A DNA stretch of 64,000 bases from contig DASSIZ010000117.1 of the NCBI GenBank assembly GCA_035691485.1, forward strand, positions 62,001-126,000, in the 5' to 3' direction. This document shows positions 638 to 916 of this stretch, one piece after another; position 1 is the stretch's first letter; the number at the start of each line of letters is the position of its first letter. Source of the stretch: Terriglobales bacterium. Lineage in GTDB: Bacteria > Acidobacteriota > Terriglobia > Terriglobales > Acidobacteriaceae. Below the pieces are notes generated by a model that was not told the DNA's origin, searched no databases, and saw only the letters and a program-made list of their open reading frames with translations. Position numbers and translations under genes: made by a program.

Positions 638-720
638 GCTTCCGCACGAAATTCGTGTTGCGAGGCGGCATGAAATCCCCGCGCGCGAATGTGCGATCTC
701 TGGTTCCGTGGATTTTTTGC

Positions 721-749
721 TTGACTTCGTTTTTGAATGACTCTATACA
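721..749 (+). promoter_or_regulatory. Strong sigma70-type promoter for the mini-gene at 811
   Basis: TTGACT (721-726), a 17-base spacer, then TATACA (744-749): one mismatch to TTGACA and two to TATAAT at optimal spacing. Predicted transcription start is near 756-758. The first base of the -35 follows a T-rich stretch. It lies about 60 bases upstream of the lysine-rich mini-gene and 84 bases after the CPBP stop, so it should drive a separate short transcript. Confidence 0.6.
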
Positions 750-810
750 ATCAAGCAATTGCAACAGTACGTTGTTGCGAATCCATGAACAATGGAAGGG
801 AGAATAGATC

Positions 811-864
811 ATGGCAACGAAAAAGGGTGGCAAGAAGGCTGCAAAGAAAACCAAGAAGCACTAA
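811..864 (+). CDS. 17-residue lysine-rich peptide (mini-gene)
   Basis: ATG-to-TAA frame encoding MATKKGGKKAAKKTKKH, with 9 lysines in 17 residues and no acidic residue. Support for it being real: a purine-rich ribosome site (GGAAGGGAG, about 793-801) at suitable distance, a near-consensus promoter upstream (721-749) and a clear intrinsic terminator just downstream (884-916). Together these define a transcript of about 155 bases with this frame in its centre. Composition resembles the basic tails of histone-H1-like or nucleoid proteins, so nucleic-acid binding is a guess only. It could instead be the coding part of a small regulatory RNA. I recognise no family. Confidence 0.55.
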   Translation: MATKKGGKKAAKKTKKH

Positions 865-883
865 GCCTTCACACTGAAGCAAA

Positions 884-916
884 GGGGGACGCCCAAAGCG
901 TCCCCTAAGTTTTTTG
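884..916 (+). terminator. Rho-independent terminator after the lysine-rich mini-gene
   Basis: Perfect 8-bp stem GGGGACGC (885-892) / GCGTCCCC (898-905) with loop CCAAA, followed by a run of T at 910-915. It sits 20 bases after the mini-gene stop. It is also close to the 3' end of the converging helicase gene (stop at 931), but the T run follows on the plus strand only. Confidence 0.85.

Follow-up and report, generated by a model that had tools for sequence, protein, structure and literature searches.

The closest described counterparts by composition are histone H1-type C-terminal tails and the KPAA tails of Pseudomonas AlgP and PhaF, which are disordered and rich in Lys, Ala and Pro. KPAA peptides bind DNA (PMC9239181), and peptides with at least six lysines phase-separate with RNA (PMC8979813). 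Chlamydial Hc1 and Hc2 (the latter PF07382) and the H1-like proteins of Burkholderia and Bordetella, all longer than 100 residues, likewise have Lys/Ala repeats in varying number. In dual-function RNAs such as SgrS and RNAIII, one small transcript carries conserved RNA elements as well as a frame for a peptide. The ribosome also has very short, basic, lineage-specific proteins, namely bTHX, bS22 and bL37.

Here we describe a micro-gene from a Terriglobales bacterium, found in a window of 64,000 nucleotides (the whole stretch of DNA that was analysed). The unit of about 190 bases comprises its own promoter, two leader hairpins, a ribosome site, an ATG-TAA frame and its own terminator (Table 1), and it is single-copy in the host genome. 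Whereas the H1, AlgP and PhaF segments are tails, in this case a tail of 12-30 residues makes up the entire protein, encoded by its own gene and free of a folded domain; it is also far shorter than Hc1, Hc2 and the Burkholderia and Bordetella proteins. The micro-peptides have an H1-like composition, being rich in Lys, Ala and Pro and devoid of acidic or aromatic residues. As in SgrS and RNAIII, a peptide frame is accompanied by conserved RNA elements and can vanish while the RNA stays, and the conserved frame of such RNAs is found here as coding constraint on a predicted translation product; unlike in those RNAs, the peptide is a polycation and there is no known base-pairing target. The peptide is short, basic and lineage-specific like bTHX, bS22 and bL37, but its length and sequence float and composition alone is kept.

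The earlier note on this DNA knew of no named family for the peptide, and none in Pfam, NCBIfam, Rfam or PDB was found to fit. No cut-off was reached in Pfam or NCBIfam and no match was returned from PDB; in NCBIfam and PDB this included bTHX, bS22 and bL37. When three of the longer peptides were compared with H1-like profiles, the best scores were 15.2 bits for PF07382, whose cut-off is 40, and 15.3 for the Burkholderia H1-like model NF038053, whose cut-off is 80; two of the three gave no hit. The peptide resembles histone H1-like tails by composition and is not a member by this curated profile test. Rfam 15 gave no match above the gathering score for the window region and 17 homologous loci, and neither a tRNA nor a tmRNA was detected at the locus. 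Equally, no named lysine-rich micro-protein of Acidobacteria or Bdellovibrio was found in the literature searched, most subscription papers lying outside it. Standard annotation tends to miss genes of this size, so the libraries searched contain no family name for one that is near-universal in a major order of soil bacteria.

Architecture of the unit

Table 1 Features of the micro-gene unit (positions in the window)
Feature	Position	Strand	Details
Whole unit	721-916		promoter to terminator
T tract, putatively UP-element-like	713..718	+	just upstream of the -35 element
Promoter	721..749	+	-35 TTGACT at 721-726, 17-base spacer, -10 TATACA at 744-749
Predicted transcript	756..912	+	about 155 bases; ends predicted from the -10 position and the terminator
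5' hairpin	759..780	+	arms 759-766 and 773-780; from covariation and predicted fold
Second hairpin	782..796	+	TCCAT-GAACA-ATGGA; directly ahead of the ribosome site
Ribosome-site block	796..807	+	AAGGGAGAATAG; mostly unpaired in the predicted fold
Micro-ORF	811..864	+	MATKKGGKKAAKKTKKH; ATG at 811, TAA ends at 864, stop included
3' untranslated stretch	865..883	+	GCAA here; GGCAA motif in most homologues
Intrinsic terminator	884..916	+	stem GGGGGACGC/GCGTCCCCT at 884-892/898-906; T run ends at 915

The promoter had been described in the earlier note as near-consensus. Its position and 17-base spacer held, but the description is generous, with nine of 12 bases agreeing with the consensus and the final T of the -10 element absent, which is why the built-in promoter scan did not report the site. 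The pattern is rare in the window, where the looser form TTGAC-N17-19-TATA occurs at two sites against 0.2 expected. In a 71-sequence alignment of homologues TTGAC and TATA are invariant, nearly all homologues carry a T-rich stretch of 12 bases ahead of TTGAC, and the spacer is 17 bases in 120 of 121 members (chosen with 13-21 bases allowed). The ribosome site, the ATG-TAA frame and the terminator that the same note had listed were each found in place, and there is strong support for a compact peptide gene with transcription of its own.

The 5' hairpin shows compensatory changes in five of its seven pairs, with a covariation score of 0.439 against 0.242 in shuffled alignments and far above slid controls. 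The second hairpin forms at least four pairs in 112 of 121 members, at a mean energy of -4.0 against -1.9 for shuffled sequences. Within the ribosome-site block, all 71 aligned sequences share GGAGAAT. We considered a switch formed by pairing of the first hairpin's GUUGC arm with GCAAC at the start codon, and rejected it because, as judged by eye, the complementarity is lost in members whose hairpin letters have changed (L049, L050 and L028). We also rejected the ribosome site or the terminator as a genome-wide repeated element: the terminator stem is unique in the 3.8 Mb genome, and the block has a single further near copy there, at an unrelated place. In an Edaphobacter genome (L051), a frame of 124 amino acids resembling histone H1 (MATKKANKKAAKK...) follows a GGGAGAATAG ribosome site, with no promoter.

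Behind the frame, GGCAA is present in 79 of 140 3' untranslated regions against 5.2 in shuffles; by eye, an extended terminator stem accounts for part of this 3' conservation in some members. The letters of the terminator stem, GGGGACGC/GCGTCCCC, are kept in 129 of 165 homologues across many genera. This conservation of letters exceeds the needs of termination, for which pairing suffices.

Distribution in the order and genomic setting

The unit proved to be order-wide, with similar micro-ORFs across the phylum, when other acidobacterial genomes were searched as the earlier note had proposed. A blastn search with the 196 bases gave matches in 39 of 61 relatives. A covariance model (R1), built from 71 homologues and covering the promoter, the leader and the first five codons, matched 327 of 397 genomes of the order and 73 of 80 genera at E ≤ 0.001, the weakest of these matches including loci with no frame. 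In a phylum-wide sample the matches of R1 lay almost only in its own family. Matches to a sequence pattern were mostly from Acidobacteriaceae and Terriglobales (Edaphobacter, Granulicella, Terracidiphilus and Candidatus Sulfotelmatobacter), one of them (L042) being a duplicate of a locus of the same family (L017). A protein search with the 17-mer found matches in its own genus only and reached no farther because the peptide is of low complexity. A second Lys-rich micro-gene, whose promoter, leader and terminator are different, is present in several genomes of the family (L293-L297, L206 and L208), and the five in L293-L297 have a common upstream block, AATATCTTGTG.

In the window the unit is preceded by a CPBP-protease-like frame and followed by a convergent helicase and then DnaJ-, GrpE- and HrcA-like frames, all named from reading their translations. 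Among 171 loci of the order, the unit was most commonly flanked by a divergent thiolase and a convergent helicase, or else stood ahead of an RsmE-like methyltransferase. The downstream neighbours differ among homologues and are convergent in the window and in many of them; given this orientation and the terminator, a role within an operon is excluded.

Constraint on the reading frame and its loss in one clade

The window peptide has 17 residues, eight of them Lys. No other frame in the window that opens with ATG and spans 10-40 codons reaches 40% Lys, and none of this kind arose in 20 shuffles. All 66 homologues found without a peptide filter, that is by DNA or RNA similarity with a model reaching codons 1-5 only, encode a Lys-rich peptide of 12-25 residues. 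A chance ORF is ruled out by the shuffles, by these 66 coding loci and by conservation of the unit across the order. The peptides of 121 members consist of 51% K, 29% A, 7% T and 3% P and lack Asp, Glu, Arg and aromatic residues; 42 of them end in His. Across members the length ranges from 12 to 30 residues in steps of whole codons, and there is no fixed motif past the start.

Codon usage bears the same mark of constraint. In 47 non-overlapping independent pairs, differences beyond codon 5 numbered 25, 17 and 118 at codon positions 1, 2 and 3; the pairs were taken from the full set of members, the majority of which had been selected via their first five codons only. Of 146 changed codons in these pairs, 107 are silent and 39 change the amino acid, where random single changes would leave 20% silent. 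AAAAAA codon pairs are avoided (15 against 57 expected), as would fit selection against slippage of the ribosome. Where codon 2 encodes Ala it is GCA in every one of 138 cases, against 45% GCA among the other Ala codons. As judged from these patterns, translation of the micro-ORF is well supported.

The locus is also kept where the frame is gone. In at least nine genomes from at least three genera (L192-L197, L199, L306 and L307) the ATG and the Lys codons have disappeared, the ATG being replaced by ACG, GAG or AGG, and the promoter, the ribosome-site block, the 3' motif and the terminator persist. The earlier note had stated that homologues conserving the RNA and not the frame would speak for a small RNA, and in these genomes this is what was found. 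It had offered a small RNA and a peptide as alternatives; the evidence favours both, with coding constraint in most lineages and frame-less homologues in at least nine genomes. The peptide cannot be essential everywhere, since it has been lost in those genomes. Where ORF-less genomes were sampled, no micro-ORF was found elsewhere by a strict pattern, which also misses many intact genes. This clade is a natural experiment that separates the function of the peptide from that of the RNA.

A serious if unlikely alternative is that the locus is a peptide gene and nothing else, its RNA elements serving stability and translation and the ORF-less loci being decaying remnants. The 5' hairpin, the open ribosome site and the strong terminator would suit an efficient small mRNA, and the ORF-less clade could reflect a recent loss, so that retention of the RNA may in part be a matter of recency. 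However, in the five ORF-less lineages compared, identity has fallen to 0.26 in the former ORF and 0.18 beyond the terminator, against 0.67 in the promoter, 0.75 each in the ribosome-site block and the AAGGCAA motif, and 0.63 in the terminator; R1 favours loci that retain the promoter, leader and ribosome site up to codon 5, and the 3' motif and the terminator lie outside it. A recent single loss is disfavoured because the start codons were replaced in different ways. The retained elements point to a role at the RNA level, or at a minimum to an RNA that is lost slowly.

The opposite proposal, a regulatory small RNA in which the reading frame is incidental, is improbable. It would account for the covarying 5' hairpin, the 3' motif, the kept terminator letters and the RNA elements of the ORF-less homologues, but not for the dominance of silent changes, the Lys-rich peptide at every unfiltered locus, the variation of length by whole codons or the similar peptides under unrelated leaders in other classes.

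Proposed function and counterparts in other classes

We consider it somewhat better than even (a probability of about 0.55) that the product is a free-standing polycation acting on nucleic acids, translated from a transcript with an additional role as RNA. As suggested by sequence, structure and conservation, a housekeeping-type promoter would give rise to an RNA of about 155 bases, which is probably strongly expressed. One hairpin would cap its 5' end, the second would stand just ahead of an open ribosome site, and the intrinsic terminator would close the transcript. From this RNA, ribosomes are predicted to make a disordered Lys/Ala polycation of 12-30 residues, as the coding constraint indicates. 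Judging by its composition, the peptide would most likely neutralise and bridge polyanions, chiefly RNA or DNA, and so be a free-standing counterpart of H1-type tails. In the window it has eight lysines, compared with the six or more of peptides that phase-separate with RNA (PMC8979813). The leader, GGGAGAATAG, AAGGCAA and the terminator may also work at the RNA level, which we infer because these RNA parts outlive the reading frame in one clade; with such a function beside that of the peptide, the gene would best be classed as a dual-function RNA. Should the product prove abundant, it would rank among the smallest proteins conserved in bacteria and offer a natural parallel to the short lysine peptides of condensate research.

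Composition alone does not separate DNA, RNA, the ribosome and polyphosphate as targets. Binding of nucleic acid as a basic peptide is still its likeliest role. A ribosome-associated basic peptide comparable to bTHX, bS22 and bL37 is quite improbable. The gene is short, basic, probably constitutive and single in almost the whole order, and lineage-specific small ribosomal proteins exist; yet a sequence of 12-30 residues in which composition alone is kept, with no fixed motif past the start, is unlike ribosomal proteins, the peptide is lost in nine genomes, and NCBIfam and PDB gave no match. That the polycation binds polyphosphate and organises granules instead of nucleic acid is very improbable: polyphosphate granules depend on the KPAA tail of AlgP to be evenly spaced (PMC9239181), but the neighbourhood shows no link to polyphosphate genes and the folded domain of AlgP is absent here. 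A leader peptide or attenuator sensing charged lysine tRNA on behalf of a gene downstream, as a short Lys-rich ORF followed by a terminator might suggest, is largely refuted because the neighbour, a helicase in the window, is convergent here and in many homologues, and the downstream genes differ.

Beyond the order, the same architecture was found in another family of the class (L203, MAKKPAKKAAKKKK, with a model score of 49.9 bits) and in the family f5 of the class (MAAKKKAKKKKR). In other acidobacterial classes the leaders are unrelated to that of the order and the peptides resemble MAKKAKKAAKKAKKR; the micro-ORFs there often come in tandem pairs, with ribosome sites and terminators of their own. 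The peptide, not the leader, is thus the common part across classes, as the leaders are unrelated. Counted by eye, a strict pattern was matched in roughly 75 of the 396 genomes sampled across the phylum, in about 22 of 144 Bdellovibrionota genomes and in two of 249 from Pseudomonadota. For the micro-ORFs of other classes homology is unprovable at such low complexity, and convergence is possible. A wider proposal, plausible but less likely than not, is that minimal polycations of 12-30 residues, made from strong mini-genes of their own, may serve throughout Acidobacteriota as H1-tail-like counter-ions that condense RNA or DNA, with one clade having a peptide-free regulatory RNA.

The tandem Lys-rich micro-ORFs of other acidobacterial classes (L242-L250) lie about 160-280 bases apart; an upstream block, TAATCTACATCTGGTATGAGGG, is conserved at the first copy, whereas the second has a GAAAGGGGGGAT ribosome site. 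The matching Bdellovibrionota genomes have in-frame Lys-rich micro-ORFs such as MATKKKATKKKAAKKKTAKKKKK, and the one in L105 is followed by a terminator-like hairpin. In two loci of one family (L251 and L260), the micro-ORF lies directly 3' of a gene whose product has a Cys-rich tail resembling that of a ribonucleotide reductase.
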